Shown: positions 23,209 to 39,816 of the stretch, in pieces
Position numbering within the stretch: position 1 is the stretch's first letter
Layout: every line of letters begins with the position of its first letter
Assembly (NCBI RefSeq): GCF_001570765.1
Contig: NZ_BCSH01000007.1
Location: 62,001-126,000, forward strand
Length of the DNA stretch: 64,000 nt
Direction: 5' to 3'
Source of the DNA: Nocardiopsis listeri NBRC 13360
GTDB lineage: Bacteria > Actinomycetota > Actinomycetes > Streptosporangiales > Streptosporangiaceae
The notes under the pieces: model-generated
The model's database searches: none
Told to the model about the DNA's origin: nothing
Seen by the model: only the letters and a program-made list of their open reading frames with translations
Position numbers and translations under genes: made by a program

Positions 23209-24522
23209 CTACTGGGAACCGGTGGCGGCCTCCACCTCGGTGATGAACTGCTCGGCCGCCTCCTCCGGCGTGAGGTTGCCGAAGGCCAGTTCATCGGACG
23301 CCCGCTTGGTGATCTCCACGACCTCACCGGCACCGATCGGCGGCGGCGGGTTGCCGTCGACGATGTCGCCCTCCACATCCGACAGGAAGATCGCGCTGCG
23401 CTCGTCGGCCGCGGACAGCGAGCTCAGGATGTGCGCCCGCACGTCGATGTTGGCAGGCAGTCCCAGGTCGGCCAGGATCAGCTCCGCCGCCTGATTGTCG
23501 TTGAGCATGAAGTCCACGAACCGGGCCGCCTCCTGCGGGTGCTCGCTCCCGGCCGAGACGGAGTAGAACATCGCCGGCTTGAAGTACATGCCGGTACGCT
23601 CGCCATCGCTCTCACCCGGGTAGCGCAGCAGCTCCAGGTCACGGTCGGAGGACGCGGTCAGCCCGCCCAGCTGGTTGCTCCAAAAGTGCGCCATCGCGCC
23701 GGTGTTGGTGGCCAGCACCGACTGATCGGGGCCACCCGCCTCGATCTCCACGCTCTGCGAGGCGCCCGGCTGCCCGCCGCTCTCCAGCAGGTCCTCGGTG
23801 ATCTGGAACCACTCGGCGAGGGTCTCGGATGAGAACGCGAGCTCACCGTCCTCGCCGTAGAGGTTCTCCCCGTGCTGACGGGCGAAGATCTGGAAACCGC
23901 TCTCGTTGTAGGCCATGCTCTGGGTCCCCACGATCTCACCGTCGGTGGCCTCGGTGATCTGCGTGGCGATCTCGACGTAGTCGTCCCAGGTCCACGTGGT
24001 GTCGTCGGGCATCTCCACCCCGGCCTCGGCGAAGGCCTCCGGGTCGGCGAGGATGGCGTAGACGTTCACGCCGGAGGCCACCCCGTAGGTCTGACCGTCC
24101 AGGTCACCGCTGTCGGCGATCAGTGGGTCGATCTTGGTCAGGTCCAGCTCGTCAGAGAACTCGTTGAGGTCGGCCAGCGCACCCCGGTCACCGTACTCGC
24201 GCAGGTACCGCTCCTCCTGCATCATGATGTCGGGGGCGTCGTCGGCGGCGGTGCTGGTGGCCAACCGGTCCCAGTACGAGCCCCAGTCGGTGTAGTCGGG
24301 GCTGATCCGGATGTCGGGGTTGTCGGCCTCGAAGATCTCGATGACCTGCTGCATGTTCGAGTGTCGATCGTCCGCTCCCCACCAGGAGAAGCGCAGTTCC
24401 ACCACACCGTCCTCGGCGGAGGAGCCGCCCCCGCAGGCGGATGCGAGCAGTGTGACGGCGGCGGCCAAGGCCAAGGGAGCGGCCGTGCGGCGTGTGCGTA
24501 CGCCGCCGGAGGGGATGTTCAT
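23209..24522 (-). CDS. carbohydrate ABC transporter substrate-binding lipoprotein (copy 1)
   Basis: A 437-residue family 1 extracellular solute-binding protein. The lipobox LASAC (Cys30) follows an Arg-rich, hydrophobic signal, so it is anchored outside the membrane. Core motifs VVELRFSWWG, IEIFEADNPDIRI, WTWDDYVEIA and YFKPAMFYSVSAGSEHPQEAARF are typical of sugar-binding proteins of the CUT1 class. It is the last gene of a minus-strand operon: two permeases, copy 2, then this gene. It is about two-thirds identical by eye to copy 2 over its length, so it arose by tandem duplication. No ATPase gene is in the operon; a shared MsiK-type ATPase is the usual solution in actinomycetes. Confidence 0.92.
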   Translation of the reverse strand: MNIPSGGVRTRRTAAPLALAAAVTLLASACGGGSSAEDGVVELRFSWWGADDRHSNMQQVIEIFEADNPDIRISPDYTDWGSYWDRLATSTAADDAPDIMMQEERYLREYGDRGALADLNEFSDELDLTKIDPLIADSGDLDGQTYGVASGVNVYAILADPEAFAEAGVEMPDDTTWTWDDYVEIATQITEATDGEIVGTQSMAYNESGFQIFARQHGENLYGEDGELAFSSETLAEWFQITEDLLESGGQPGASQSVEIEAGGPDQSVLATNTGAMAHFWSNQLGGLTASSDRDLELLRYPGESDGERTGMYFKPAMFYSVSAGSEHPQEAARFVDFMLNDNQAAELILADLGLPANIDVRAHILSSLSAADERSAIFLSDVEGDIVDGNPPPPIGAGEVVEITKRASDELAFGNLTPEEAAEQFITEVEAATGSQ

Positions 24523-24596
24523 CGGGGGGTCCTCAAGGTCTCGTTCATCGGGTGGGTAGGGTGCGCGGGCGGGGCCACGCCGGGGGGTCGTTCGGG

Positions 24597-25907
24597 TCAG
24601 GTTCCCGAACCGACCGCGCTGCGCAGTTCGGACACGAACTGCTCGGCCGCCTCACTCGCGGTGAGATTGCCGAAGCTGAATTCCTGGTAGGCGCGCCGGT
24701 TGATGTCGACGATCTCGCCCGAGCCCACGGGCGGGGGCGGATTGCCATCGACGACCTCGTCCTCGATGTCGGCGAGGAAGTCGGCACCCCGGGTCTCGGT
24801 CTCGGGCAGGTCGGACATGATGTGCTCACGCACCTCGATGTTGGCCGGCAGGCCCAGGTCGGCCAGTACGGTCTCGCCCACCACATCACTGTTGAGCAGG
24901 AAGTCGACGAATCGGGCCGCCTCCCGGGGGTGGTCGGTCCCGGCCGAGACCGCGTAGTACATGGCGGGCTTGAAGTAGGTGCCGGTGCGCTCGTTCTCGG
25001 TCTCTCCGGGAAAACGCAACAGCTCGATGTCACGCCCGGAGGCCTGTGCGACGGCGCCCAGCTGGTTGCTCCAAAAGTGCGCGGTGGCGCCTGTGTTGGT
25101 GGCCAGCACCGACTGGTCGGGGCCACCGGCGGCGATCTCCACGCTCTGGGAGGCGTCCGGTTGCCCGCCGCCCTCCAAGAGCCGATCGGTGAGCTCGTAC
25201 CAGGACTGCAGGGTCTGTTCGGAGAAGGCGACCTCACCGTCCTCGTCGAAGAGGTTCTCCCCGTGCTGGCGGACGAAGATGTGGAAGGCGTTCTCGTTGG
25301 TCAGGCCCTGGGTTCCCACGATCTCACCGTCGGTGGCCTCGCTGATCTCGATGGAGATCTCCACGTAGTCGTCCCAGGTCCACGTGGTGTCGTCGGGCAT
25401 CTCCACCCCGGCCTCGGCGAAGGCCTCCGGGTCGGCGAGCATCGCCGAGGCGTTGACACCGGTGGGAGCGCCGTAGACCGCACCGTCCACCACCCCGCTC
25501 TGGGCCACCAACGGGTCCAGGCCCGACAGGTCCAACCCCTCCAAGGTGCTCAGATCCGCCATGGCGCCCCGCTCGGCGTACTCGCTCAGGTAGGACTCGT
25601 CCTGCATGAGCACGTCCGGGGCGTCGTTGGCGGCGACACCGGTGGCCAACCGGTCCCAGTAGGCGTCCCAGTCGGTGTAGTCGGGGCTGATCCGGATGTC
25701 GGGGTTGTCGGCTTCGAAGACCTCGATGACCTCCTGCAGGTTGGCGTGCCTCTCGTCCGACCCCCACCAGGAGAAGCGCAACTCCACCACGTCCCCGGAG
25801 CCACCGGAACAGGAGGTCAGGGCCAAGGCCAACGCACCGGTGGCCGCGGCGACCATGGCCGCAGGCGGGTGTCGTCGTGTGGAGCGGACGCGGGTGAGGG
25901 GTGGCAC
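24597..25907 (-). CDS. carbohydrate ABC transporter substrate-binding lipoprotein (copy 2)
   Basis: A 436-residue paralogue of the next gene, with lipobox ALTSC (Cys33) and the same CUT1 motifs (RFSWWGSDERH, WTWDDYVEIS, YFKPAMYYAVSAG). The segment LADPEAFAEAGVEMPDDTTW is identical in the two. Differences cluster in the N-terminal lobe around residues 95-140 and in QGLTNENAFHIF, which in such proteins line the ligand cleft, so the pair may bind related but different sugars. GTG start with AAGGG upstream. It lies 26 bp after the MalG-type permease. Confidence 0.92.
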   Translation of the reverse strand: MPPLTRVRSTRRHPPAAMVAAATGALALALTSCSGGSGDVVELRFSWWGSDERHANLQEVIEVFEADNPDIRISPDYTDWDAYWDRLATGVAANDAPDVLMQDESYLSEYAERGAMADLSTLEGLDLSGLDPLVAQSGVVDGAVYGAPTGVNASAMLADPEAFAEAGVEMPDDTTWTWDDYVEISIEISEATDGEIVGTQGLTNENAFHIFVRQHGENLFDEDGEVAFSEQTLQSWYELTDRLLEGGGQPDASQSVEIAAGGPDQSVLATNTGATAHFWSNQLGAVAQASGRDIELLRFPGETENERTGTYFKPAMYYAVSAGTDHPREAARFVDFLLNSDVVGETVLADLGLPANIEVREHIMSDLPETETRGADFLADIEDEVVDGNPPPPVGSGEIVDINRRAYQEFSFGNLTASEAAEQFVSELRSAVGSGT

Positions 25908-25933
25908 GGGGGGATCCCTTCTGTGGTGCGGCT

Positions 25934-26809
25934 CTACTTGATGCCGGTGGTGGCGATGCCCTTGACCAGGTAGCGCTGACCCGCGAGGAAGAACCCGAAC
26001 ACCGGCCCCAGCGCCACCACCGACATCGCGAACAGCGGACCCCAGGAGGTCTGGGAGCTGGAGTCGACGAAGGTGCGCAGCGCCACCGGAACGGTGTACA
26101 TGTCGGGGCTGGTCAGGAAGATCAACTGACTGAAGAAGTCGTTCCAGGTCCAGATGAAGGTGAAGATCGCGGTGGTGGCCAGGGCCGGCAACGACAGCGG
26201 CAGGATGATCTGGCAGAAGATCCGCACGTGCCCACAGCCGTCGATACGCGCCGCCTCGTCCAGGTCACGAGGCAACCCGCGAATGAACTGGACCATCAAG
26301 AAGATGAAGAAGGCGTCGGTGGCCAGCAGCTTGGGGACGATGAGCGGGTAGAAGGTGTTGATCCAGTCCAGCTGCGCGAACAGGATGTACTGCGGCACGA
26401 TCACCACGTGGATGGGCAGCATGATCGTGGCCAGCATGATCGCGAAGAACAGGCGCTTGCCCCGAAACTCCAGGCGGGCGAAGGCGTAGGCCGCCATGGA
26501 GCACCCGATGAGGTTGCCGACGATGGAGCCGGCCACCACGATCGCGGAGTTGAGCAGGTAGTGGTGGAAGGGGAACTGCAGGGCGCCCCAACCCTCGGTG
26601 TAGTTGCTCGGGGTGAAGCTCCAGGGGATGAGCCCGGGTTCGCGGAAGATCTCCGCGGTGGGCTTGAAGGAGCTGGAGAGCATCCACAGCAGCGGGTAGA
26701 GCATGATCAGGCCGAAGCCGATCAAGCCGATGTGGGTGAGTAGTCGTCGCGTGCGCGCGGACCGGGTCCGAGTGGGGGTGGGAGCCGGTGCCTTGGTCTC
26801 AGTCGCCAT
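25934..26809 (-). CDS. CUT1 ABC transporter permease, MalG-type
   Basis: A 291-residue inner membrane permease with six predicted helices. The EAA loop reads GLPRDLDEAARIDGCGHVRI, the docking site for the ATPase. The start overlaps the stop of the MalF-type gene by 11 bp, showing translational coupling. Together with the partner permease and one of the two binding proteins it should import an oligosaccharide or sugar derivative. Confidence 0.92.
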   Translation of the reverse strand: MATETKAPAPTPTRTRSARTRRLLTHIGLIGFGLIMLYPLLWMLSSSFKPTAEIFREPGLIPWSFTPSNYTEGWGALQFPFHHYLLNSAIVVAGSIVGNLIGCSMAAYAFARLEFRGKRLFFAIMLATIMLPIHVVIVPQYILFAQLDWINTFYPLIVPKLLATDAFFIFLMVQFIRGLPRDLDEAARIDGCGHVRIFCQIILPLSLPALATTAIFTFIWTWNDFFSQLIFLTSPDMYTVPVALRTFVDSSSQTSWGPLFAMSVVALGPVFGFFLAGQRYLVKGIATTGIK

Positions 26810-27767
26810 AGAAAACCCAGTACTTGGAGGCCAGGAAGTTCACGGCGGTGAACCCCCCGATGATCATCAGGAGCAGCCAGGCCATCGCCGAGGCGTAGCC
26901 CATGTCGAACGAACCGAAACCGCGTTGGTACAGGTAGAGCGTGTAGAAGAGGGTGGAGTCCGAGGGGCCGCCGGTGCCACCGCTGACGATGAACGCCTGG
27001 GTGAAGGTCTGGAAGGCGTTGATGATCTGCAGCACCAGGTTGAAGAAGATGATGGGCGTGAGCATCGGAACGGTGATGTTCCAGAACCGGTGGAGGGGAC
27101 CGGCTCCGTCCACGGCGGCCGCCTCGTAGTACATCCGGGGAACCTGACGCAGCCCGGCCAGGAAGATGACCATGGGGGCACCGAAGGTCCACACGTTGAG
27201 CACGATGAGCGTGCCCAGGGCGTAGTCGGGGTGGGACACCCAGCCGTACCCCTGTACCCCGAAGAAGGCCAGGACCTGGTTGACCAGCCCTTCGGCGCCG
27301 AAGACCTGCCGCCACAGGATGGCGACGGCCACGCTGCCGCCCAGCAGCGAGGGCAGGTAGTACACCGAACGGTACAGGGGCAGGCCGCGCACCCCTCGGT
27401 CCAGGACCATCGCCAGCGCCAACGCCAGCGCCAACTGGAGCGGCACCGACACGAACACGTACACGAAGGTGACCCGGAGCGCGCTGAGCAGACGGTCATC
27501 GCTCAGCATGCGTTCGTAGTTCTCCAGCCCCACCCACTGGTGGTCACCGATGAGGTTGTAGTCGGTGAAGGAGAAGTACAACGAGGCCAGCAACGGGCCC
27601 GCGGTGATGACGATCAGGCCTAGGAACCAGGGTGCCAGGAAGGCGTAGGCGGCCAGGTTCTCCTGGCGGCGCCGACCGGTGCCGCGCCCTGCGGACCCTT
27701 TGGCGACGCGGGCCTTGGGCGGGGCGGGATCGACCTTCTTGGGGCTTCGCTGGAGCAGTGCGCTCAC
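26799..27767 (-). CDS. CUT1 ABC transporter permease, MalF-type
   Basis: A 322-residue permease with six membrane helices after a basic cytoplasmic N terminus. The EAA loop is VPRMYYEAAAVDGAGPLHRF. I chose the GTG at 27767, nine bases after GGGAG, over an in-frame codon at 27809. It is the first gene of the operon; a LacI-type operator lies at 27934-27947 and a TTGACA promoter further upstream, leaving a leader of about 190 nt. Confidence 0.9.
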   Translation of the reverse strand: MSALLQRSPKKVDPAPPKARVAKGSAGRGTGRRRQENLAAYAFLAPWFLGLIVITAGPLLASLYFSFTDYNLIGDHQWVGLENYERMLSDDRLLSALRVTFVYVFVSVPLQLALALALAMVLDRGVRGLPLYRSVYYLPSLLGGSVAVAILWRQVFGAEGLVNQVLAFFGVQGYGWVSHPDYALGTLIVLNVWTFGAPMVIFLAGLRQVPRMYYEAAAVDGAGPLHRFWNITVPMLTPIIFFNLVLQIINAFQTFTQAFIVSGGTGGPSDSTLFYTLYLYQRGFGSFDMGYASAMAWLLLMIIGGFTAVNFLASKYWVFYGD

Positions 27768-27933
27768 GGCGCACCACTCCCGGGGCGCACCTGCGTCCGT
27801 GTGGGGCACAGGCGGCGGCTGAGGAGGCTCATGGTCGGGGGACCACCAATCTGGTCAGGGCGGATGCGGAGGACGTGGGGCCGTCTTCACCGACGTGGCC
27901 GAGAACACGTGGCGAACTCGCAGGTTATGGCCT

Positions 27934-27947
27934 GGTAAGCGCTATCC
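27934..27947. promoter_or_regulatory. LacI-type operator upstream of the ABC operon
   Basis: GGTAAGCGCTATCC is a near-palindrome of the LacI/GalR catabolite type, lying about 12 bp after the predicted ABC operon start site. Similar sites stand at 28163, 32610 and 39030. Confidence 0.7.
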
Positions 27948-27965
27948 ATAGTTTAAGATGTTCAG

Positions 27966-28148: not shown

Positions 28149-28178
28149 TTGAGTTTCACCCTGGAAAGCGTTTACCCT
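28149..28178 (+). promoter_or_regulatory. promoter with embedded LacI-type operator, leaderless start
   Basis: TTGAGT (28149-28154) and TACCCT (28173-28178) are 18 bp apart and the GTG start codon follows at 28185, so the mRNA is probably leaderless. The operator GGAAAGCGTTTACC (28163-28176) lies inside the promoter and overlaps the -10, a strong repression layout. Confidence 0.6.
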
Positions 28179-28184: not shown

Positions 28185-29498
28185 GTGAACGACACCTCCC
28201 CACGCAGATTCGCCATCATCGGCACCGGGTCCAGAGCGCGCATGTACACCCGCGCCCTCACCGACACCCATCGGGACCTGGGCCTGCTGGTGGCCCTGTG
28301 CGACACCAACGCCACTCGCATGGCCGTGCACAACCGGATCGTCACCGAGGCGGGGCTGGACCCCGTCCCCACCTACCCGGCCGAGGCCTTCGGCCGCATG
28401 CTCCACGAGCAGAAGGTGGACGAGGTCATCGTGTGCACGGTCGACCACACCCACGCCGACTACGTCGTGGCCGCCCTGGAGGCCGGCGTCGACGCCATCA
28501 CCGAAAAGCCCCTCACCGCGGACCTGGACGGGCTCGAACGCATCAACGCGGCCCAGGCCCGCACCGGCCATCGCGTCACCGTCGGATTCAACTACCGCTA
28601 CAATCCCGTCCACCTCAAGCTGCGCGAACTCATCGCCTCCGGAGTCATCGGCGAGGTCGGTTCGGTGCACTTCGAGTGGCTGCTCGATCTGCGCCACGGA
28701 GCCGACTACTTCCGCCGCTGGCACCGCGACAAGGCCAACTCCGGCGGTCTACTGGTGCACAAGGCGAGCCACCACTTCGACCTGGTCAACTGGTGGATCG
28801 GCGCCCGCCCCGAAGAGGTCTACGCCTCGGGTCGGCTGTTCTTCTACGGCGCCGAGAATGGCCACCGCCACGGTGTGGGCGGCGACTACGCGCGCGGGCA
28901 CGCCTCACCCGAGGCCGCTCAGGACCCCTTCGCCCTGCACATGGCCGACAGCCCCGACCTGACGGCCCTGTACCTGGAGGCCGAACACGAGGACGGCTAC
29001 CGGCGCGACCTCAACGTCTTCGGTGAGGGCATCACCATCGAGGACGACATGTCGGTGCTGGTGCGCTACGACAGCGGGGTACGGCTCAGCTACCACCTGG
29101 TGGCCTACGCGCCCTGGGAGGGCTACCGGATCTCCATCACCGGCAGCAAGGGCCGCCTGGAGCTGGACATGACCGAGTTCGCGCACACCTCGCCCGAGCA
29201 GGACGAGCGGCACCCCGTCCGCGGCATGCCCGCCCCCAAGGAGAACAGCACCGCCCGACTGTGGCTGCGCCGTCACTGGCAAGAGCCCGAGGAGATCCCC
29301 GTGACCGTGGGCGGTGGCGGACACGGCGGCGGTGACGTCGCCATGCTCACCGCCCTGTTCGGCCGAGTCGACGACGGTGTCCGCCCCGATCACGCCGACG
29401 GTGGCAACGCCCTGATCACCGGGCTGTGCGCCAACGCCTCCATCGCCTCGGGGCGCCCGGTGCGCGTGGACGAACTACTGGGGCAGGAGGGCCGGTGA
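28185..29498 (+). CDS. Gfo/Idh/MocA family oxidoreductase (first of locus)
   Basis: A 437-residue NAD(P)-dependent oxidoreductase. The N-terminal Rossmann domain starts FAIIGTGSRARMYTRAL, ITEKPLTAD carries the EKP motif that places the nicotinamide, and KASHHFDLVNWW is the catalytic helix with a His pair. Such enzymes oxidise or reduce sugar hydroxyls, often at C1 or C3. The GTG at 28185 is preferred; an in-frame TTG at 28149 falls inside the promoter. It heads an operon of four genes plus the regulator, with the next gene overlapping by 4 bp. It is divergent from the sugar ABC transporter and shares the LacI-type control. Confidence 0.9.
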   Translation: MNDTSPRRFAIIGTGSRARMYTRALTDTHRDLGLLVALCDTNATRMAVHNRIVTEAGLDPVPTYPAEAFGRMLHEQKVDEVIVCTVDHTHADYVVAALEAGVDAITEKPLTADLDGLERINAAQARTGHRVTVGFNYRYNPVHLKLRELIASGVIGEVGSVHFEWLLDLRHGADYFRRWHRDKANSGGLLVHKASHHFDLVNWWIGARPEEVYASGRLFFYGAENGHRHGVGGDYARGHASPEAAQDPFALHMADSPDLTALYLEAEHEDGYRRDLNVFGEGITIEDDMSVLVRYDSGVRLSYHLVAYAPWEGYRISITGSKGRLELDMTEFAHTSPEQDERHPVRGMPAPKENSTARLWLRRHWQEPEEIPVTVGGGGHGGGDVAMLTALFGRVDDGVRPDHADGGNALITGLCANASIASGRPVRVDELLGQEGR

Positions 29499-30682
29499 GC
29501 ACCCGCCCGCTGCCCGAGGGGCCCGTGCCCGTGCTCTTGGTGGGCCTGCACGGGCACGGGCGCTCCCACCTGCGTGCGCTGCGGTCCCTGGGCGAACAGG
29601 GGCTGGTGCGCCTGGTCGGTGTGTGCGATCCCCGCCCACCGGCCCCCGACGACGACCTGGAGGGGCACGGCCCCCTGCCCCACTTCGACGACCTGTCCCG
29701 GGCACTGGAGGAGACCGGCGCCCGGATCACCGTCCTGGTCACCCCCATCCACACCCACCTGCCACTGGCCCGCACCGTACTCGCCCACGGCTCCCACCTG
29801 CTGTTGGAAAAACCCACCACCGCGACCCTGGCCGAACTACACGAACTCACCGACGCCGTCACCGCCTCCGGCCTGGCCTGCCAGGTGGGCTTCCAGAGTC
29901 TGGGATCGACCGCCATCGACCACGTCCGTGGGCTGCTGACCCAAGGAGTCGTGGGCGAGCTGCGCGGCATCGGCGGCGTGGGCACCTGGAAACGCACCTC
30001 GGCCTACTACGACCGCGCCCCCTGGGCCGGACGTCGCCGCATGGGCGGGCACGACGTGGTCGACGGGGCGCTGACCAACCCCTTCGCGCACATGGTCGCC
30101 ACCGCCCTGGCCCTGGCCGACGGCGGCGACCACGCCCCGAGCGAGATCGTCCCCGAACTCTTCCACGCCCACCCCATCGAGGCCGACGACACCTCCTGCC
30201 TACGGTTGCGCACCCACCAGGGCACCCCGGTGTGCCTGGCCGTGACCCTGTGCTCGCCGCGCAGTCTGCCGCCCGCGCTCCACCTGCACGGTGAACACGG
30301 GCACATCACCTTCGAGTACACCCTGGACCGGGTCACGGTGCACCTGCCCGGACAGGACCCGCACACCACCACACACCCGCGCACCGGCCTGATGGAGAAC
30401 CTCATCGCCCACCTGCGCGAGGGGACGCCCTTGCTGGTTCCCCCCACAGCCACCCTGGGGTTCACCCACGTGCTGGAGGCGGTGCGCACCGCCTCCGACC
30501 CCCGCCCCATCCCCGCCCACCACCAGGACGTGTGGCGCGAAGCGGGCATCACCCATCGCACCATTCACGGCATCGACGCCCTGGTCCACCGAAGCGCCCG
30601 GCACATGAGCGGCTTCACCGAGCTCGGAGCCGCCTGGGCCGTGCCCGAACCCACCGCGCGCCCGTTGGAGGCCCGACCGTGA
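29495..30682 (+). CDS. Gfo/Idh/MocA family oxidoreductase (second of locus)
   Basis: A 395-residue protein of the same superfamily as its neighbour but clearly divergent. The Rossmann start is VPVLLVGLHGHGRSHLRAL, the EKP motif is LLLEKPTTAT, and the C-terminal half has GRRRMGGHDVVDGALTNPF, HMVATAL in place of the usual catalytic SHxxDxxxW. The GTG overlaps the previous stop by 4 bp (GTGA) and AGGAGG precedes it, so the two are coupled. It may work with the first oxidoreductase as a paired oxidation/reduction on a sugar. Confidence 0.85.
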   Translation: MSTRPLPEGPVPVLLVGLHGHGRSHLRALRSLGEQGLVRLVGVCDPRPPAPDDDLEGHGPLPHFDDLSRALEETGARITVLVTPIHTHLPLARTVLAHGSHLLLEKPTTATLAELHELTDAVTASGLACQVGFQSLGSTAIDHVRGLLTQGVVGELRGIGGVGTWKRTSAYYDRAPWAGRRRMGGHDVVDGALTNPFAHMVATALALADGGDHAPSEIVPELFHAHPIEADDTSCLRLRTHQGTPVCLAVTLCSPRSLPPALHLHGEHGHITFEYTLDRVTVHLPGQDPHTTTHPRTGLMENLIAHLREGTPLLVPPTATLGFTHVLEAVRTASDPRPIPAHHQDVWREAGITHRTIHGIDALVHRSARHMSGFTELGAAWAVPEPTARPLEARP

Positions 30683-32603: not shown

Positions 32604-32623
32604 AACCTGGGAAAGAGTTTTCC
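32604..32623 (+). promoter_or_regulatory. promoter/operator of the LacI gene
   Basis: TAACCT (32604-32609) is a -10 candidate and is immediately followed by the LacI-type operator GGAAAGAGTTTTCC (32610-32623), which would cover the transcription start. This suggests autoregulation. Confidence 0.5.
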
Positions 32624-32631: not shown

Positions 32632-32655
32632 ATGGCAGAAAGGGCAGGGGCGTGA
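32632..32655 (+). CDS. possible 7-codon ORF coupled to the LacI start
   Basis: ATG GCA GAA AGG GCA GGG GCG TGA ends with its TGA overlapping the GTG start of the LacI gene (GTGA). It could couple translation of the repressor, or be chance. Confidence 0.25.
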   Translation: MAERAGA

Positions 32656-33683
32656 GTTCGTCGTATGTGACGCTGGAACAGGTGGCACAACACGCGGGGG
32701 TGTCGCTGGCCACCGCCTCCCGAGTCATCAACGGCAGCACCCGCCAGGTCAGCGAACGCCTGCGCGAGAAGGTCAACGCCAGCGCCGAGGAACTGGGCTA
32801 CCTGGCCAACGCCTCCGCCCAGACCCTGGCCCGCAACAGCAGTTCCCTGGTCGGCCTGCTCGTCCACGACATCGCCGACCCCTACTTCTCCTCCATCGCA
32901 CGCGGGGTCACCCGCCACACCGAGGAACAGGGACTGGTCACCGTCCTGGGCACCACCCACCGATCCACCCAGAAGGAGAGCACCCTCCTGGCGACCCTGC
33001 GCGCCCACCGCGCCAAGGCCATCGTCCTGGTCGGTTCGCGCTCCACCGACGAGGAGAGCAACACCCGACTGATCCGCGAGATCGAAGCCTTCCAACAACA
33101 GGGCGGACGCGTGGCGTGCGTGTCCCAACCCGGGCTGCCCGCCGACACCGTCAACCCCGACAACCACACCGGAGCCGCGGAACTGGCCCGCCACCTCATC
33201 GCCCTGGGACATCGACGCTTCGCCATCCTGGCCGGCCCCACCAACCTGAGCACCGCACGCGAGCGACTGGACGGCTTCCACTCCGCGCTCTCCGCCGCCG
33301 GCATCGAGCTGGAACACCACAACATCGTGCACGGCGACTTCACCCGCGATGGCGGATTCGAGTCCACCCGACGCCTGATGCGCCTGGGCACCGACGCCAC
33401 CTGCCTGTTCGCGGTCAACGACGTCATGGCCACCGGCGCCATGGCCGCCCTGCGCGATTCGGGCATCCGCGTACCCCAGGAACTGTCCGTGGCCGGGTTC
33501 GACGACATCCCCACCCTGCGCGACCTCACCCCCGCCCTGACCACCGTGCGCCTACCCCTGGAACAGATGGGCGAACGCGCCGCGCAGATGGCACTGGAGA
33601 CCGACCACGAAGGCCAGGACCGCACCGTCAACGTCCAAGGCGAGGTCCTCATGCGCGAGAGCACGCAGCGCCCCGCCCTGTGA
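32652..33683 (+). CDS. LacI-family transcriptional repressor
   Basis: A 343-residue LacI/GalR regulator: N-terminal HTH (VTLEQVAQHAGVSLATASRV, residues about 6-25), hinge near residues 48-60, and a periplasmic-binding-protein-like sugar sensor ending DIPTLRDLTPALTTV. It lies at the end of the catabolic operon and is the natural owner of the operators at 27934, 28163, 32610, 39030 and probably 39200 and 39392. The GTG at 32652 puts the HTH at the usual distance from the start; the longer open frame upstream covers the promoter. Confidence 0.92.
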   Translation: MSSSYVTLEQVAQHAGVSLATASRVINGSTRQVSERLREKVNASAEELGYLANASAQTLARNSSSLVGLLVHDIADPYFSSIARGVTRHTEEQGLVTVLGTTHRSTQKESTLLATLRAHRAKAIVLVGSRSTDEESNTRLIREIEAFQQQGGRVACVSQPGLPADTVNPDNHTGAAELARHLIALGHRRFAILAGPTNLSTARERLDGFHSALSAAGIELEHHNIVHGDFTRDGGFESTRRLMRLGTDATCLFAVNDVMATGAMAALRDSGIRVPQELSVAGFDDIPTLRDLTPALTTVRLPLEQMGERAAQMALETDHEGQDRTVNVQGEVLMRESTQRPAL

Positions 33684-33691
33684 ATCCCCAG

Positions 33692-33727
33692 CGGGGGTGG
33701 TGGAGCGATTCCGCTCCACCACCCCCG
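33692..33727. terminator. strong bidirectional terminator
   Basis: CGGGGGTGGTGGAGCG (33692-33707) and CGCTCCACCACCCCCG (33712-33727) form a perfect 16-bp stem with a 4-nt loop between the LacI gene and the convergent dehydratase gene. Confidence 0.9.
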
Positions 33728-33759
33728 TTCGCGTCCCGTGCCAGAGGACGCGTCCCGTG

Positions 33760-34836
33760 CTAGGGGAGTGGGGACAGATCCCGGGCGAAGGACAGACCGT
33801 GACCAAGGCCGGTCTCAGCGCTCAGCCACCCCTCACCGATCCGCACCCCGCTGGGGGCGGCCAAAGCCCCCAACGCCTCGAACGAGGCGTGGTCGATGTC
33901 CTCGACCATCGCCACCCGGGGCACGCACAACGCCAACTGCCCCGACAACTCCGGCAACAGGTGCGGCGCCACCGGCACACCACGCCGCGCCATCGACTCG
34001 GCCACCCGCAGGAACGGGGTGATGCCACCGACCCGCACCACATTGGGCTGGGCCACATCGCACACCCCCGCCTCGACGAACCGGTCGAACTCCTCGACCT
34101 CGCGCAGGTTCTCACCCAGGGCGAAGGGCACCGCGGTACGCGCCCGCAGGCGTTCATGCGCGGCCAGATCCCGGGCCGGCAACGGCTCCTCCACGAAGAG
34201 CGGATCGTGTTCGACCAACCGATCCAGGGCCCGCACGGCCGTGGGCACGTCCCAACGCTGATTGGCGTCCACCATCAGCGTCCGCTCCGGGCCCAACACG
34301 CCGCGCACCGCGGCGACCCGCTCGACATCGCGCGTCACCTCGGCCGACCCCACCTTGATCTTGGCGGCCCGATGCCCGGACCCGACCCAGGAACCCACCT
34401 GTTCTAGCAGGTCGGCGGAGTCGTAGTCGAGATTGACCCCGCTGCCATAGGCGGCGACCCTATCGCGACGCCGACCGATCAGGTCCACCAGCGACATCCC
34501 TGCCACCTTGGCCTGAACATCCCACAGGGCGATGTCCACCCCGGCCAGGGCCATCAGGGTCAACCCGGTGGTACCCGCCTCGCGCAGATGCCATCGCAAC
34601 TCCTCCCACCGGCTCGGGTGGGCGAGCCCGCCCACCACCACCGGCGCCAGGTCGGTGTTGACCAAGGACACCACCGCCCCCGCCCCGATCAACGGGGTCC
34701 AAGAGAACCCGGTGCCCACCACCCCGGCGTCGGTGGCGACCTGCACCACCACGATGTCGTTGTGATCCACACCGCCGTCCCAGGCCCGCCGCAACGGCAA
34801 ACGGAACGCGCGAGCCGCCACCTCGGTGACACGCAC
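33760..34836 (-). CDS. mandelate racemase/muconate lactonizing-type enolase superfamily dehydratase
   Basis: A 358-residue enolase-superfamily enzyme. The KxK motif (Lys159, Lys161) gives the base, Asp190, Glu216 and Glu242 bind magnesium (VDANQ, FVEEP, LGEN), and His292 in PHLLPELSG is the second base. This set is that of acid-sugar dehydratases and galactarolactone cycloisomerase. Because the next gene upstream looks like 5-dehydro-4-deoxyglucarate dehydratase, the likely product is a 4-deoxy-5-keto- or 3-deoxy-2-keto-hexarate from an aldaric acid or its lactone. It is the last gene of the minus operon, GTG start 4 bp after the previous stop. Confidence 0.88.
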   Translation of the reverse strand: MRVTEVAARAFRLPLRRAWDGGVDHNDIVVVQVATDAGVVGTGFSWTPLIGAGAVVSLVNTDLAPVVVGGLAHPSRWEELRWHLREAGTTGLTLMALAGVDIALWDVQAKVAGMSLVDLIGRRRDRVAAYGSGVNLDYDSADLLEQVGSWVGSGHRAAKIKVGSAEVTRDVERVAAVRGVLGPERTLMVDANQRWDVPTAVRALDRLVEHDPLFVEEPLPARDLAAHERLRARTAVPFALGENLREVEEFDRFVEAGVCDVAQPNVVRVGGITPFLRVAESMARRGVPVAPHLLPELSGQLALCVPRVAMVEDIDHASFEALGALAAPSGVRIGEGWLSAETGLGHGLSFARDLSPLP

Positions 34837-34840: not shown

Positions 34841-35746
34841 TCAGCCCTTCCCGATCAAGGACAGACCCGTCTGGATCAACGCCGACAGCTCGGCCTCCTC
34901 CGCCGAGGTCAGATCGACGAAGGGAGCGCGCACCGCACCCGCCCGCACCCCGCGCAGCCGGGCCCCGGCCTTGACCAACGACACCGCGTACCCCGGGGAA
35001 CGGTCACGCAGCCGCACCAGCGGGTCGTAGAACTCGCTCACCAAACGCCCAGCGAGCGGGTCGGCGGAATGGAAGGCCTTGTAGAAGGCGTCGGCCACCT
35101 CCGGGACGAACGCGAAGGCCGCCGAGGAGTACAACGGAACACCCACCCCGGAGTAGGCCGCCACGGTCAGCTCCGCGGTCGGCAACCCGTTGAAGAAGGT
35201 GAAGTCCGCACCGCGCACCGCGCGCACCGCCAACACGACCTGGTGCATGTTCCCCAGATCACCCACACCGTCCTTGATGCCCACCACCCGTGGAATGGCC
35301 GCCAACTCCGCCGCCGAGTCGGGGGAGAACACCATGGAGCCGCGCTGATAGACGATGATGGGGATCTCCACCGCATCCGACACCGCCCTGACGTACTCCA
35401 CCAGACCCCGCTGGGGCGCCGAGACCAGGTAGGGCGGCAACAACAAGATGGCGTCCGCGCCCGACTCCAAGGCGGTCCGCGCCTGCTCGATGGCGGTGCC
35501 CACGCTGCCACCGGCACCGGCCACCACCGGCACGGCACCGTCGACCACCTGAACCGTACGACGCACCACCGCGGCGTGCTCGGCCGCGGACAGGGCGTGG
35601 ATCTCACCGGTGCCACATGCGGTGAAGACCCCACCGGCCCCATGGGCCACCCCCGAGGCCACGTGCTCGGCGAGCACCTCCTGGTTCACCGCTCCGGCGT
35701 CGTCGAAGGGTGTGAGGGGAAAGAACAGGATCCCGTCGAAGTTCAT
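34841..35746 (-). CDS. kdgD: 5-dehydro-4-deoxyglucarate dehydratase-like DapA-family enzyme
   Basis: A 301-residue (beta/alpha)8 class I aldolase-like protein. Schiff-base Lys158 (VVGIKDGVGD), Tyr133 (IIVYQRG) and GTGE (45-48) are in place. The specific stretches LLLPPYL, FNGLPTAE (185-192), YSSAAFAFVP (206-215) and GYAVSLVKAG followed by VRAPFVDLT match 5-dehydro-4-deoxyglucarate dehydratase rather than DapA or NanA. That enzyme dehydrates and decarboxylates the product of glucarate/galactarate dehydration to 2,5-dioxopentanoate. The dehydrogenase that would finish the path to 2-oxoglutarate is not in the window. AAGGAG precedes the ATG. The symbol is by strong resemblance. Confidence 0.8.
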   Translation of the reverse strand: MNFDGILFFPLTPFDDAGAVNQEVLAEHVASGVAHGAGGVFTACGTGEIHALSAAEHAAVVRRTVQVVDGAVPVVAGAGGSVGTAIEQARTALESGADAILLLPPYLVSAPQRGLVEYVRAVSDAVEIPIIVYQRGSMVFSPDSAAELAAIPRVVGIKDGVGDLGNMHQVVLAVRAVRGADFTFFNGLPTAELTVAAYSGVGVPLYSSAAFAFVPEVADAFYKAFHSADPLAGRLVSEFYDPLVRLRDRSPGYAVSLVKAGARLRGVRAGAVRAPFVDLTSAEEAELSALIQTGLSLIGKG

Positions 35747-35801
35747 GTGCTTTGCTCCTTGTCACGAGGGCGCCGCCCCTGGCGGCGGGGTCGGATGTGG
35801 T

Positions 35802-36701
35802 TCACAGGACGTGCTGAACGTGGCGGCGGGCCATGGTCGCGATGACGTCGTCACCGTCGGCGGCCCACACATCGGCGTTGAAGACCTCCCACTCGACGTC
35901 GCCCTCATAACCGGCGGCCCGCACCGCCCGGTACAGGGAACGAACATCGATGTGGCCGTCGCCGACCATGCCCCGACCCAACAGCGGGTCGGCGGGCAGG
36001 GGAAGGACCCAGTCGCACACCTGGAAGGAGGCGATGCGTCCACGCGGACCCGCCCAGGCGATGTGCTCGTACACCGTCGGGTCCCACCACACGTGGTAGG
36101 TGTCCACCACCACGCCCACCTGCTCCGCGGGGAAGGGTTCGGCCCACTCCAGGGCCTGGCCCAGGGTGGACAACACCGCACGATCGGCACAGAACATCGG
36201 ATGCAAGGGCTCCAACCCCAACCGCACACCGCGTTCGGCCGCGTAGGGCGCCAACACCTGTAGGGCCTCGGCCACCCGCTCCCGGGCGCCGACCAGGTCG
36301 CGGTCGCCTTCGGGGAGGCCTCCCACCACCATGACCAGGACGGGGGCACCCAGCTCGGCGGCCTCGTCCAGTGCTCGGCGGTTGTCGTCCAGTGCCGCCG
36401 CGGGGTCGGGGCCGGTGAGGAACCCGCCCCGACAGTAGGTGGACACCCGCAGACCCGAGTCGCGCAGCAGACGAGCCGACACCGCGAGCCCGGCCTCGGC
36501 GACCTGTTCGCGCCAGGGACCGATAGCGGGCACGCCCGCGCGCAGGCAGCCCTCCACCGCCTGCCGCAGACTCCAGTACTTGGTGGTGGCCTGATTGAGG
36601 GAGAGCCGCGACAGGACCGCGTCGCCCGGGACCGGGGTGGGCACCGTGGCCTTGCTCCCGGAAGGCACGTCCACGTCGGTGACCTGAGGGACGATGGTCA
36701 T
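35802..36701 (-). CDS. sugar phosphate isomerase/epimerase-type TIM barrel
   Basis: A 299-residue xylose-isomerase-like TIM barrel. Family features are LSLNQATTKYWSLRQAVEG at the N terminus, the metal-site strand GLEPLHPMF, VVVDTYHVWWDP, and DGHIDVRSLYRAVRAAGYEG with a C-terminal WEVFN. The Glu, Asp and His residues of these strands would bind a divalent metal for enolisation of a keto sugar. Its ATG overlaps the DUF993 stop by 4 bp (ATGA). Such proteins commonly pair with Gfo/Idh oxidoreductases in redox-based sugar degradation. Confidence 0.85.
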   Translation of the reverse strand: MTIVPQVTDVDVPSGSKATVPTPVPGDAVLSRLSLNQATTKYWSLRQAVEGCLRAGVPAIGPWREQVAEAGLAVSARLLRDSGLRVSTYCRGGFLTGPDPAAALDDNRRALDEAAELGAPVLVMVVGGLPEGDRDLVGARERVAEALQVLAPYAAERGVRLGLEPLHPMFCADRAVLSTLGQALEWAEPFPAEQVGVVVDTYHVWWDPTVYEHIAWAGPRGRIASFQVCDWVLPLPADPLLGRGMVGDGHIDVRSLYRAVRAAGYEGDVEWEVFNADVWAADGDDVIATMARRHVQHVL

Positions 36702-37858
36702 CGCTCCACCCCCGAAACACGCAGCAACCGGCCCATGCGCTCCATCGCCAGGTCGGGGTCGCTGAGCGCCCCGGCCCGATCCGCCAGGCGCAGGATCTGC
36801 GCCAGGTGGGGCAACGAACGCGCGCTGTGCAGCCCACCCACCATGTGAAAGCCCTTCTGGTGGCCGTTGAGCCAGGCCAGGAAGGTGATCCCGGTCTTGT
36901 AGTAGAAGGTGGGAGCGGAGAACAGGTGCCGGGCCAAGGGCACGGTGGCGTCCATAAGCTCGCGGTAGCGAGCCGTGTCGCCGTCGTCCAGCGCCGCAAG
37001 GGCACGACCGGCCACCGGGGCGATGGCGGCGAAGACGCCCAGCAGGGCGTCGGAGTGGCCGTACTCATCACCTTGGATCAGCTCGGGATAGTGGAAGTCG
37101 TCGCCGGTGTACAAGCGCACCCCTTCGGGGAGCAGTCGACGCAGACGCACCTCCAGGTCGGCGTCGAGCAGGGACACCTTGATGCCCTCCACGCTCGCGG
37201 CGTGATCGGAGATCAGCTCGGCCACCGGTTCGATCGCCTCGGCCGGGTCGCGGTACCCCCAGTAGCCGGCCAGGGCCGGGTCGAAGGCCTCACCGAGCCA
37301 GTGCAGGATCACCGGACGCTCGGCCCGCTCCAACAGTGAGGCGTAGACCTTGGTGTAGTCGTCGGGGCCCTGGGCCGCGGCGGCCAGCGCACGCGAGGCC
37401 ATCAGCACCGGAGCGGCCCCGGCGCCCTGGACGGTGTCGAGTTGTTCGCCATACGCCTGGACAACGCTTTCCAAAGACTGCTGCGAAGACCCCAGCTGGT
37501 CGGTGCCCACCCCACAGGCCAGGGCGGCACCACGACCGGCGGCCTCGGCGCCCGAACGGCGGATCAGTTCGGCGGTGGCGGGCCAGTCCAACCCCATGCC
37601 GCGCTGGGCGGTGTCCATCGCGTCGGCCACGCCCAGCCCCTGGTCCCACAGGTGGTGCCGGAAGGCCAGGGTGGCGTCCCAGTCCAGGCGGGCCGCTTCC
37701 CCCGGCGCGTTGACGGCGGTGGGGTCGGCGACCACGTGGGCGGCGGCGTAGGCCACACGGGTGCGTGCGGGGGACAGGGGAGCGGTCTCGGCGCGGGGTC
37801 CGGTGGGGGAGAAGGGTGTGGTGCCGCCTTCGGGGGAGGGCAGCATCAGGTCGCTCAT
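36698..37858 (-). CDS. DUF993 family protein (dihydrodipicolinate synthase-like)
   Basis: A 386-residue protein matching DUF993, a branch of TIM-barrel aldolase-like proteins common in actinomycete sugar clusters. RTRVAYAAAHVVADP opens the barrel, PVILHWLGEAFDPAL is a conserved strand, Lys227 in EGIKVSLLD is a candidate Schiff-base lysine, and GDDFHYPELIQGD and TFYYKTGITFLAWLNGHQ are family-typical. No reaction is established for DUF993. Start and stop overlap the neighbouring genes by 4 bp each, so it is tightly coupled to the oxidoreductase and the isomerase and probably acts between them. Confidence 0.8.
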   Translation of the reverse strand: MSDLMLPSPEGGTTPFSPTGPRAETAPLSPARTRVAYAAAHVVADPTAVNAPGEAARLDWDATLAFRHHLWDQGLGVADAMDTAQRGMGLDWPATAELIRRSGAEAAGRGAALACGVGTDQLGSSQQSLESVVQAYGEQLDTVQGAGAAPVLMASRALAAAAQGPDDYTKVYASLLERAERPVILHWLGEAFDPALAGYWGYRDPAEAIEPVAELISDHAASVEGIKVSLLDADLEVRLRRLLPEGVRLYTGDDFHYPELIQGDEYGHSDALLGVFAAIAPVAGRALAALDDGDTARYRELMDATVPLARHLFSAPTFYYKTGITFLAWLNGHQKGFHMVGGLHSARSLPHLAQILRLADRAGALSDPDLAMERMGRLLRVSGVER

Positions 37859-39009
37859 CGGGTCGTCACCTCACTCAGTTCCACGGTGCGTCCGGTGCGA
37901 GCGGAGTCCAGCCCCGCCTCGGCCATCTGGATGCCGCGCGCCCCGGAGAGCAGGTCGTGGGGGAAGTCGGTGCCCAGCACCACGTGCGCCAGGAAGGCCT
38001 CCCACTGGGCCCGGAAACCGTTGGGGAACTCGGTGTTGTCGGGAACCTGTTCCCACTGGTCGCGGTAGCCCCCGGCGTCGGCGGTGTCGGGGTCCCAGGT
38101 CGCCTTGGGGGTGGTGGAACGGTGCTGGATACGGCAGTGGCGCAGGCCGGCCACGGCGCTGCCGTGGGTGCCGTCCACCTGGAACTCCACCAGCTCGTCG
38201 CGGTCCACCCGCACACTCCATGAGGAGTTGATCTGGGCGATGGTGCCGTCGGTGAGTTCGAAGATGCCGTAGGCGGCGTCGTCGGCGGTGGCCCCGTAGG
38301 CCCGCCCCTGCTCGTCCCAGCGATGGGGGATGTGGGTGGCGGTGCGGGCGGTGACGGTGCGTACCGGGGAGAACAGGTGCTCCAGGACGTAGTGCCAGTG
38401 CGGGAACATGTCCAGCACGATGCCGCCGCCATCCTCGGCCCGGTAGTTCCAACTGGGCCGCTGTCCGGGCTGCCAGTCGCCCTCGAAGACCCAGTAACCG
38501 AACTCGCCTCGGATGGAAAGGATCTTTCCAAAGAAACCGCTGTCCACGAGTCTGCGGAGTTTGAGCAGACCGGGCAGGAAGAGCTTGTCCTGGACCACAC
38601 CGTTGCGCACCCCCGCCTGCTCGGCGAGTTTGGCCAGCTCCAGGGAGGACTCCAGGGTGTCGGCGGTGGGCTTTTCGACGTAGATGTGCTTGCCCGCGGC
38701 GATGGCCGAACGCACCGCCGCCTCGCGTGCGTGGGTGATCTGGGCGTCGAAGTAGATCGAGATGCTGTCGTCGTCCAGCACCGTGTCCAGGTCGGTGGAC
38801 CAGCGTTCGATGTCGTGTCGACGGGCGATCTCGCGCAGCTTGTGCTCGGAACGCCCCACCAGCACCGGTTCGGGGATGACTCGGGTGCCGTCGGGCAACT
38901 CCAGGCCACCGGCGTCACGGATCGCCAGGATCGACCGGGTCAGGTGCTGCCGATAGCCCATTCGGCCGGTGACGCCGTTCATCGCGATGCCCAGCACGTG
39001 CTCTGCCAT
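37855..39009 (-). CDS. Gfo/Idh/MocA family oxidoreductase (third of locus)
   Basis: A 384-residue oxidoreductase with an unusual start GIAMNGVTGRMGYRQHLTRS in place of a plain GxGxxG, EKP in YVEKPTADT, and the catalytic-half motif WNYRAEDGGGIVLDMFPHWHYVLEHL. It heads the five-gene minus operon. AGAGGTGG precedes the ATG. A LacI-type operator (39030-39043) lies 21 bp upstream of the start codon. This is the third Gfo/Idh enzyme controlled by the same regulator, a count seen in clusters that oxidise glycosides to 3-keto forms. Confidence 0.88.
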   Translation of the reverse strand: MAEHVLGIAMNGVTGRMGYRQHLTRSILAIRDAGGLELPDGTRVIPEPVLVGRSEHKLREIARRHDIERWSTDLDTVLDDDSISIYFDAQITHAREAAVRSAIAAGKHIYVEKPTADTLESSLELAKLAEQAGVRNGVVQDKLFLPGLLKLRRLVDSGFFGKILSIRGEFGYWVFEGDWQPGQRPSWNYRAEDGGGIVLDMFPHWHYVLEHLFSPVRTVTARTATHIPHRWDEQGRAYGATADDAAYGIFELTDGTIAQINSSWSVRVDRDELVEFQVDGTHGSAVAGLRHCRIQHRSTTPKATWDPDTADAGGYRDQWEQVPDNTEFPNGFRAQWEAFLAHVVLGTDFPHDLLSGARGIQMAEAGLDSARTGRTVELSEVTTR

Positions 39010-39029
39010 GGGTTGTTACCACCTCTCTT

Positions 39030-39051
39030 TGAAAGCGCTTTCCAAAGCGTA
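39030..39051 (-). promoter_or_regulatory. LacI-type operator and -10 of the minus-strand catabolic operon
   Basis: GAAAGCGCTTTC (39031-39042) is a perfect 12-bp palindrome within TGAAAGCGCTTTCC, and TACGCT (minus strand, 39051-39046) just upstream is a -10 candidate, putting the start site inside the operator. Confidence 0.7.
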
Positions 39052-39199: not shown

Positions 39200-39213
39200 A
39201 GCAAACGCTTGCC
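39200..39213. promoter_or_regulatory. LacI-type operator-like site, upstream of the pectate lyase remnant
   Basis: AGCAAACGCTTGCC holds the palindromic GCAA-ACGC-TTGC core. It is 315 bp before the remnant start. The 518-bp stretch 39010-39527 has no gene I can support; it contains this site, the one at 39392 and the divergent promoter. Confidence 0.5.
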
Positions 39214-39391
39214 AAGGGTCTCTGAGCGTGATCGGCCCTGTGCGAACACCCGAACGTGCGGGCCGCACGGAAAGATCATCCGAAAGGACCCGCTTCGAAC
39301 TGCCGCTACGCGAGGAAAGAGCGGTCGTGGGCGAACCTTTCGCGTTACCGGTACTGACTGGGATGCAACCGGATCACAGCTTCTTGCGCAC

Positions 39392-39405
39392 GGAAAGCGT
39401 TTGCA
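39392..39405. promoter_or_regulatory. LacI-type operator-like site in front of the pectate lyase remnant
   Basis: GGAAAGCGTTTGCA differs from the operator at 28163 in two positions and lies 122 bp before the remnant's start codon, so the lost lyase was probably in the same regulon. Confidence 0.5.
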
Positions 39406-39527
39406 CGAACGCGGGCCACATTCCCGTCCGGTGCACGGGCCCATTCCCAAGACGCCACCGACCGCACAGCGTTTCCGTTCAGGGGCGTCCCGCGCTTCCC
39501 GCCTCCCGATTCCGAAGGAAATCCGTC

Positions 39528-39816
39528 ATGCGATCCCCGTGACCGACGAACCCCGGGCCCCGTCCGCACGATCCTGCCGGCCGGCAACGCCGCCCGGCAG
39601 GCCTCTCGGGTCGCAGAGAACGGCGGCAGCACCGGCGGTGAGGGTGGCGACGTCGTCACCGTCCAGGAGGGCGGCACCAACGTGGGGAACGACCACGACA
39701 GCTTCACCGGCGGCTACGACGGCGCCGTGGACGTCGAGCGCGAGTGGGACTTCGTGACCGTTTCCTGGAACCACTGCTTCGACCACGACAAGGCGTCCCT
39801 GGTCGGGAGCACTTGC
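39528..39816 (+). pseudogene. decayed pectate lyase (PL1-type) gene
   Basis: An ATG at 39528 with a good GAAGGAA seven bases upstream runs into TGA after four codons. One frame further on the sequence reads SRVAENGGSTGGEGGDVVTV, the N-terminal signature of secreted PL1 pectate lyases (NGGTTGGxGGxxVTV), then jumps directly to NDHDSFTGGYDGAVDVER and DFVTVSWNHCFDHDKASLVG, the central active-site segment (YDGxxDxxxxxxxVTVSWN, HDHDKxSLVG). The signal peptide frame, the middle and the entire C-terminal half are missing. It is therefore an internally deleted, frameshifted remnant of an enzyme that cleaved pectin outside the cell. Confidence 0.75.

Follow-up and report, generated by a model that had tools for sequence, protein, structure and literature searches.

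A LacI-controlled Nocardiopsis locus with a putative oxidative uronate arm and a separate DUF993 cassette

RESULTS

Overview of the locus

We analyzed a 64,000-nucleotide stretch of contig NZ_BCSH01000007.1 from the 5.7-Mb genome of the soil actinobacterium Nocardiopsis listeri NBRC 13360 (positions 62,001 to 126,000; here called the window), and in it a locus whose 14 genes form three putative operons, one for the transporter (minus strand), one with Gfo1-Gfo2-DUF6807-SDR-LacI (plus strand), and one with Gfo3-DUF993-ISO-KdgD-MR (minus strand) (Table 1). Gfo1 to Gfo3 denote Gfo/Idh-fold proteins, SDR a short-chain dehydrogenase/reductase, ISO a TIM-barrel isomerase-like protein, and MR an enolase-superfamily protein. 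On balance, we lean towards the view that this LacI-controlled locus imports and degrades a hexuronic-acid glycoside through a uronate arm (module B: SDR, MR, the KdgD-like protein, and an aldehyde dehydrogenase) and a second arm (module A: Gfo3, DUF993, and ISO). The most fitting description is that of oxidative uronate catabolism, a pathway of known kind, arranged in a new way: a possible NAD+-dependent uronosidase heads it, and a separate, widespread, and uncharacterized DUF993 cassette lies alongside. From gene content, operators, synteny, co-occurrence, conserved residues, and predicted folds, we infer all the reactions, the substrate, and the half of the substrate that module A would handle.

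A preliminary description of this DNA had listed the permeases, binding proteins, three Gfo/Idh proteins, DUF6807, SDR, isomerase, DUF993, MR, KdgD-like protein, and LacI regulator. Every one was found where it had been placed, and the observation of the locus and its components is sound. Among the DUF993 proteins scanned, the nearest named one, 95% identical, is in a metagenome-assembled genome of N. listeri.

The putative uronate arm

The oxidative uronate pathway consists of uronate dehydrogenase, an aldaro-lactone cycloisomerase or aldarate dehydratase, KdgD, and 2,5-dioxopentanoate dehydrogenase. Similarly, SDR, the enolase-superfamily enzyme, the KdgD-like protein and, in relatives, an aldehyde dehydrogenase are found in one array. 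The locus differs from that pathway in being headed by a Gfo/Idh protein with glycosidase-like residues, in being joined to a DUF993 cassette and to DUF6807, and in having a KdgD below the equivalog cut-off.

The KdgD-like protein scores above the PRK03620 subfamily cut-off (388 versus 278 bits). Its residues K158, Y133, T46, E48, and S208, which we take to be the Schiff-base lysine and neighboring active-site residues, are conserved in 25/25 sequences and also in a Palleronia KdgD whose score exceeds the equivalog cut-off (in all residue counts, repeat stretches and short search loci were skipped and close relatives were counted singly). Members of the mandelate racemase subgroup of the enolase superfamily carry a KxK motif, three metal-binding acids, and an Asp-His dyad. 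In MR, the corresponding residues are conserved: K159, K161, D190, E216, and E242 are found in 27/27 sequences, D260 in 25/27, and H292 in all 26 compared. MR scores below the NF047820 equivalog cut-off for L-talarate/galactarate dehydratase (214 versus 500 bits). A profile search with SDR ranked an uncharacterized SDR first (80 bits) and the engineered uronate dehydrogenase Udh 6mfh second (69 bits), with UDP-glucose epimerases at 64 bits. Naming SDR by single-sequence or profile searches of the PDB was not decisive, because many SDR families score alike. SDR was found in 7 of 346 genomes, that of the window included, and all seven carry DUF993, against a background of 24/296.

The preliminary description had put the 2,5-dioxopentanoate dehydrogenase outside the window. 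Indeed, a scan of the genes between 20340 and 43702 revealed none, and a candidate aldehyde dehydrogenase, 57% identical to that of locus L086, is encoded on another contig (C111) of the same genome. About 3 kb from this gene lies a TauE/SafE-type gene (L140 5396-6154). Three genomes of one genus (L144, L155, L156) have a single array, Gfo1-SDR-KdgD-MR-aldehyde dehydrogenase. In another genus (L085, L086), the same genes are present with module A inserted after Gfo1 and with DUF6807, Gfo2, LacI, and the transporter alongside, and in a third genus (L089) SDR-KdgD-MR-dehydrogenase lies close to Gfo1 and module A. The aldehyde dehydrogenase gene adjoins MR in all six of these loci, and it adjoins KdgD, immediately past the binding proteins, in N. 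terrae and N. algeriensis (L142, L143). Since it recurs in these arrays, we regard the aldehyde dehydrogenase as a regular member of module B. Modules A and B are linked in L085, L086, L089, L156, and Nocardiopsis.

Several observations bear on the substrate. MR, the KdgD-like protein, and the aldehyde dehydrogenase are parts of the established aldarate route to 2-oxoglutarate. On a Palleronia plasmid, module A has as neighbors a mandelate-racemase gene, an aldehyde dehydrogenase gene, and a kdgD that scores 398 bits against a cut-off of 374. In genome G204, Gfo1 is followed by a glucuronate isomerase (PRK02925, 544 bits, cut-off 387), and the next genes encode a protein of the enolase superfamily, a protein resembling fructuronate reductase, and Gfo2 (L168); module A is retained 10 kb away (L087). 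Judging from this gene order, Gfo1 here heads a glucuronate isomerase arm that has taken the place of the oxidative one. In genome G257, the genes bordering module B encode ManD (688 bits, cut-off 550) and another protein resembling fructuronate reductase (L144). Because the aldarate-route enzymes, the swap in G204, and the flanking genes in G257 agree, we propose a uronate as the substrate. Thus, the uronate part of the preliminary interpretation gains real support. In G257, a gene for a BNR_4-repeat protein adjoins Gfo2 and DUF6807 (L144 629-2140).

The preliminary description had also suggested pectin as the source. This was not borne out, as no pectinase or known polysaccharide-lyase family was found among a selection of neighboring open reading frames searched with Pfam. 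GH43, GH127, xylan esterase, and arabinopyranosidase-like genes are present in two genomes of one genus (L155, L156, L169), and with such neighbors, side chains of plant hemicellulose would fit better than pectin.

A separate DUF993 cassette

DUF993 neighborhoods were gathered from genomes and annotated plasmids. The gene is present in 24/296 genomes of the actinobacterial phylum (including one marginal match and one fragment at the end of a contig) and in 25/289 genomes of the alphaproteobacterial class to which a Rubellimicrobium genome belongs. The actinobacterial set covers 20 of the 24 genomes (left out were the window's own, G013 with a 6.7-kb contig, the piece in G227, and the marginal G294), and the alphaproteobacterial set draws its 20 loci from 19 of 25 genomes (of the other six, G296 had been seen as L027, and G488, G496, G533, G419, and G574 were left out). 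Twelve plasmid loci were chosen by hand and are not a random sample. Gfo3 accompanies DUF993 in 20/20 actinobacterial and 16/20 alphaproteobacterial loci, and ISO does so in 20/20 and 17/20. A GMC oxidoreductase is encoded nearby in two of the four alphaproteobacterial loci that lack Gfo3 (L109, L113). KdgD lies near module A in only 3/20 actinobacterial, 0/20 alphaproteobacterial, and 1/12 plasmid loci, and in G257 and G617, which have both modules, distances of 2.2 and 0.9 Mb separate module A from the array with KdgD. Module A does not, as a rule, include KdgD, MR, SDR, or the aldehyde dehydrogenase.

DUF993 passes the gathering score of Pfam PF06187 (599 versus 24 bits, over 380 residues). 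Its relation to dihydrodipicolinate synthase (DHDPS) is a weak sequence match (E 0.01), and an hhalign comparison with KdgD was also weak (E 0.0059, probability 6%), with the GIK motifs in register. The GIK lysine, K227, is conserved in 80/80 sequences together with H186, D193, D253, D254, Y320, and K321. In ISO, E164, D200, and H203 are found in 74/74 sequences and D230 and E270 in 73/73, as expected of a metal-dependent TIM barrel. Gfo3 keeps its EKP lysine and D200/H204 in 68/68 sequences, and its score against levoglucosan dehydrogenase NF052479 was 63 bits (cut-off 650). In the literature searched, we found no paper naming DUF993, for which 4dnh is a solved structure without function; a passage retrieved with DUF6807, PF14100, and PF06187 cited a DUF by number alone. 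The S. meliloti DUF993 and Gfo3 are presumably SMc04132 and SMc04133. Literature on the SMc0413x names and on 7VPF gave no function, and in a proteome table for Sinorhizobium, SMc04132 is entered as an uncharacterized protein and SMc04133 as a putative oxidoreductase.

A glycerate kinase gene was present within the fetched 20 kb in 6/20 actinobacterial loci, where chance would give about 0.1, the 20 genomes having 32 matches in all (the probabilities ignore relatedness and use 30 genes rather than 32 matches, two being pieces of one gene in G050). It was also found in 7/12 plasmid loci, and it directly follows ISO in L083, L084, L124, and L126. Because glycerate kinase recurs near DUF993, we propose that module A ends at the glycerate level. 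Its patchy distribution, together with acyl-CoA enzymes added to some rhizobial and rhodobacteral clusters, suggests that module A may have more than one substrate.

Plasmids of Paracoccus, Rhizobium, Sinorhizobium, and Sagittula carry DUF993 clusters of a second type (L129, L130, L131, L134). There, DUF993 and the isomerase are accompanied by acyl-CoA dehydrogenase, CoA transferase, and enoyl-CoA hydratase in 4/4 of the stretches shown, and by a GMC oxidoreductase, an electron-transfer flavoprotein, and glycerate kinase in 3/4 each. Another remote DHDPS-like protein (cluster c9) is encoded in 9/20 alphaproteobacterial loci (L095, L101, L102, L105-L108, L110, L111). Since a transporter of the NMT1 or tripartite tricarboxylate type is encoded in some of these loci, their substrate may be acidic.

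Two known systems are comparable to the cassette. In Paenarthrobacter nicotinovorans, a pAO1 operon has a GMC oxidoreductase, AldH, a Gfo3 orthologue (63%), DUF993 (56%), and glycerate kinase in a row; AldH is annotated with "D-xylose catabolic process," and we take this operon to be the one published as an oxidative xylose pathway. Unlike the locus of the window, it has no relative of ISO, SDR, MR, or KdgD in the 33 kb fetched. The levoglucosan, puerarin, and Agrobacterium tumefaciens 3-keto-glycoside operons, as described in passages of PMC10628242, combine Gfo/Idh with sugar-phosphate-isomerase-like enzymes. Our locus likewise pairs Gfo/Idh with a TIM-barrel isomerase-like enzyme but has the DHDPS-like DUF993 within the cassette. 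AtOGE (8BVK) was not among the 24 PDB sequences matched by ISO at E 0.001, although absence from the PDB or fold-match lists used here does not rule out a fold or family.

The preliminary description had combined both modules in one linear pathway, in which Gfo3, ISO, and DUF993 would open a uronate-containing sugar and pass the product to MR and KdgD. Consistent with this, Gfo3-DUF993-ISO-KdgD-MR stand in a row in 14 of 20 Nocardiopsis-type loci, module A runs directly into SDR-KdgD-MR in L085 and L086, and a different enolase-superfamily gene (MR11) lies in or beside the cassette in 8/20 alphaproteobacterial loci. The Nocardiopsis-type tally comprises L003, L005-L022, and L026 (L012 being titled Glycomyces, L017 and L020 Streptomonospora) and leaves out L002 and L004, whose loci extend past the contig ends; because several of the 20 also break off within the cluster, the true numbers of SDR, Gfo1, Gfo2, DUF6807, and permeases may be higher than counted. 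The locus of L012, titled Glycomyces fuscus, is as close to Nocardiopsis as those of other Nocardiopsis records, and the record may be mislabeled. However, module A mostly occurs without a nearby KdgD, G257 and G617 have the two modules at widely separated places, and module A persists at a distance where uronate would go through glucuronate isomerase (L168). We thus consider a single linear pathway rather unlikely. What stands of the earlier scheme is the uptake of a uronate-containing sugar and the dehydrogenase-dehydratase-KdgD route, in agreement with the dehydrogenase beside MR and KdgD in relatives and with the glucuronate isomerase swap; the opening of the sugar by the isomerase and DUF993 to feed KdgD is not supported.

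Gfo1 and the nature of the glycoside

The top fold match of Gfo1 was the GH188 NAD+-dependent sulfoquinovosidase SqgA. K108, Y137, H196, and H380 of Gfo1 are conserved in 37/37 sequences and are the likely counterparts of ArSqgA Lys107, Tyr136, His193, and His321, a pairing based solely on position and fold, no reference sequence having been aligned. Gfo1 differs from SqgA in sharing about 24% identity over the aligned part, in its sulfonate-site residues, which could not be placed, and in having uronate genes as neighbors. Naming Gfo1 by single-sequence or profile searches of the PDB was not decisive, as many Gfo/Idh families score alike. All of the genomes with Gfo1 (9/346, that of the window included) carry DUF993, against the background of 24/296. 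From its fold and conserved residues, Gfo1 is a possible NAD+-dependent uronosidase at the head of the pathway. For DUF6807, a link to methane oxygenase, suggested by source names such as PmoA, was dropped, since the model is mutarotase-like.

Two other kinds of glycoside were weighed. A neutral glycoside might be degraded by the known 3-keto route of oxidation, elimination, hydration, and reduction, with the KdgD-like protein having drifted to another reaction. Three Gfo/Idh proteins with a TIM-barrel isomerase resemble the levoglucosan and A. tumefaciens glycoside operons, as described in passages of PMC10628242, and both the subthreshold score of the KdgD-like protein and the GH43, GH127, and xylan-esterase genes near some copies would fit. 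Nevertheless, the glucuronate isomerase swap, the ManD neighbor, MR, and the aldehyde dehydrogenase speak for an acid sugar, making a neutral one quite improbable. A sulfoquinovoside, freed by Gfo1, oxidized by SDR, dehydrated by MR, cleaved by the KdgD-like protein as an aldolase, and taken to sulfolactate by the dehydrogenase, is highly improbable, because the glucuronate isomerase behind Gfo1 (L168) and ManD beside module B (L144) fit a uronate and not a sulfosugar, because Arg166 and Lys172, which bind the sulfonate in ArSqgA, could not be clearly matched to residues of Gfo1 in a comparison made without a reference sequence alignment, and because the carboxylate removed by KdgD is absent from a sulfosugar.

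Gene organization and operators

Gene calls and sites are compiled in Table 1; the starts of Gfo1, Gfo2, DUF6807, SDR, and LacI were chosen from the sequence and homologues and are not those of the longest open reading frames. An orthologue of SBP2 (55-56% identity) adjoins the permeases in L085 and L086.

Table 1. Genes and sites of the locus (window positions)
Feature	Positions	Strand	Remarks
SBP2, extracellular solute-binding protein	23209..24522	-	PF13416 103 bits
SBP1, extracellular solute-binding protein	24597..25907	-	PF13416 94.5 bits
PermB, ATP-binding cassette (ABC) permease	25934..26809	-	PF00528
PermA, ABC permease	26799..27809	-	PF00528; true start possibly more internal
LacI-type operator TGGTAAGCGCTATCCA	27933..27948		upstream of transporter operon, between transporter and Gfo1 operons
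Second LacI-type operator	28162..28177		immediately upstream of Gfo1
Gfo1, Gfo/Idh-fold protein, possible NAD+-dependent uronosidase	28185..29498	+	
Gfo2, Gfo/Idh oxidoreductase	29495..30682	+	top PDB relative 3q2k (WlbA, UDP-GlcNAcA dehydrogenase), 57 bits
DUF6807 protein, galactose-mutarotase-like supersandwich fold	30679..31518	+	PF14100 208 bits; model predicted local distance difference test (pLDDT) 92.8
SDR, candidate uronate dehydrogenase	31656..32549	+	PF01370; S111, T113, Y141, K145 in 21/21
LacI-family regulator	32652..33683	+	PF00356, PF13377
Inverted repeat, probable two-way terminator	33684..33759		between convergent LacI and MR genes; read from sequence
MR, putative enolase-superfamily acid-sugar dehydratase or cycloisomerase	33760..34836	-	PF13378 184 bits
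KdgD-like 5-dehydro-4-deoxyglucarate dehydratase	34841..35746	-	PRK03620 388 bits; top PDB relative 4ur7 KdgD, 202 bits
ISO, AP_endonuc_2 TIM-barrel isomerase-like protein, module A	35802..36701	-	PF01261; PDB 7vpf 316 bits, 3ju2 253 bits
DUF993, remote DHDPS-like protein, module A	36698..37858	-	PF06187 599 bits; 4dnh 451 bits
Operator-like palindrome within DUF993 gene	37458..37473		pattern match
Gfo3, Gfo/Idh dehydrogenase, module A	37855..39009	-	PF22725/PF02894; 3oqb 481 bits
LacI-type operator	39029..39044		upstream of Gfo3

The LacI-type control with matching operators that had been proposed for the locus was supported, a site being present ahead of each of the three putative operons. 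A search with the pattern TGGWAAGCGYTWWCCA, allowing up to 3 mismatches, gave 10 matches at 6 sites, four of these on both strands, where 0.95 were expected; none of 100 shuffles reached 10. Two of the sites are weak (3 mismatches each), one at 21358, outside the locus, and one at 32609, directly ahead of LacI. The site upstream of Gfo3, with at least 14 of 18 bases matching, is present in 20/20 Nocardiopsis-type loci tested, and that upstream of PermA is present in 9/10 relatives (L142 and L143 were left out as repeats of L003 and L008). The sole miss, L019, has a permease of 30% identity that is probably no orthologue. Several other actinobacteria also have the Gfo3 site (for example, L028, L079, L083, L084, L087, and L093), and nothing above shuffles was found upstream of Gfo3 in L023, L024, L078, L085, L086, L088, L091, L123, and L124. 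In L085 and L086, the site precedes PermA and Gfo2 rather than Gfo3.

DISCUSSION

According to the mechanism that we propose, the ABC transporter would import a hexuronic-acid glycoside, from which Gfo1 would free the uronate by an NAD+-dependent cycle of oxidation, elimination, hydration, and reduction like that of GH188 and GH109, and DUF6807 and Gfo2 may assist on the sugar. SDR would convert the uronate to an aldaro-lactone, MR, as dehydratase or cycloisomerase, would yield 5-dehydro-4-deoxyglucarate, KdgD would turn this into 2,5-dioxopentanoate, and the aldehyde dehydrogenase encoded outside the locus would complete the route to 2-oxoglutarate. Module A would oxidize and then isomerize a second sugar or sugar acid; DUF993 would cleave or dehydrate the intermediate through a Schiff base on Lys227, and the arm would end in glycerate or a precursor taken up by glycerate kinase.

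Several results weigh against this mechanism. The KdgD-like protein misses the TIGR03249 equivalog cut-off (291 versus 373.95 bits), and we therefore call it KdgD-like and not a proven KdgD. Native Udh 3rft scores only 48 bits against the SDR profile, below many epimerases, so that SDR is not clearly a uronate dehydrogenase. The aldehyde dehydrogenase on C111 has no operator on its contig, a search at E 1e-30 assigned no NCBIfam model to those of L086 and L089, and the fructuronate-reductase-like proteins score 302 (L168) and 205 bits (L144), below the cut-off of 603. Six of the 20 Nocardiopsis-type loci (L003, L008, L015, L016, L018, L019) lack KdgD between the isomerase and MR: two have a 49% identical KdgD with an aldehyde dehydrogenase past the transporter, three have a 42-43% copy elsewhere, and one genome has no good match. 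Comparison of the Gfo1 sequence alone does not point to glycosidases, and most DUF993 genomes lack Gfo1, with 7/24 being among the Gfo1 genomes. As to the glycerate end of module A, glycerate kinase is found in just 1/20 alphaproteobacterial loci and in none of the 20 Nocardiopsis-type loci, and the single PF02595 glycerate kinase of the window's genome is on another contig.

A more far-reaching proposal, which we put forward tentatively and hold to be possible rather than probable, is that Gfo3-DUF993-isomerase is an undescribed catabolic cassette of actinobacteria, alphaproteobacteria, Paenibacillus, and Erwinia. DUF993, as a new DHDPS-type Schiff-base aldolase, would cleave a ketone made by the dehydrogenase to glycerate-level products. 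In Nocardiopsis and relatives, the cassette would be yoked to a new uronosidase family, Gfo1, and both halves of an imported aldobiuronic-type glycoside would be burnt without a classical glycosidase or lyase in the locus.

DUF993 is present in about 1 in 12 sampled genomes of the actinobacterial phylum and the alphaproteobacterial class. It is now tied to a fixed dehydrogenase and isomerase and, in some lineages, to glycerate kinase. The glycosidase-like Gfo1 precedes either of two rival uronate pathways and occurs only in DUF993 genomes (9/9). Hence, the "unknown function" of DUF993 is narrowed to a few concrete enzyme assays, and Gfo1 becomes a candidate NAD+-dependent uronosidase family.

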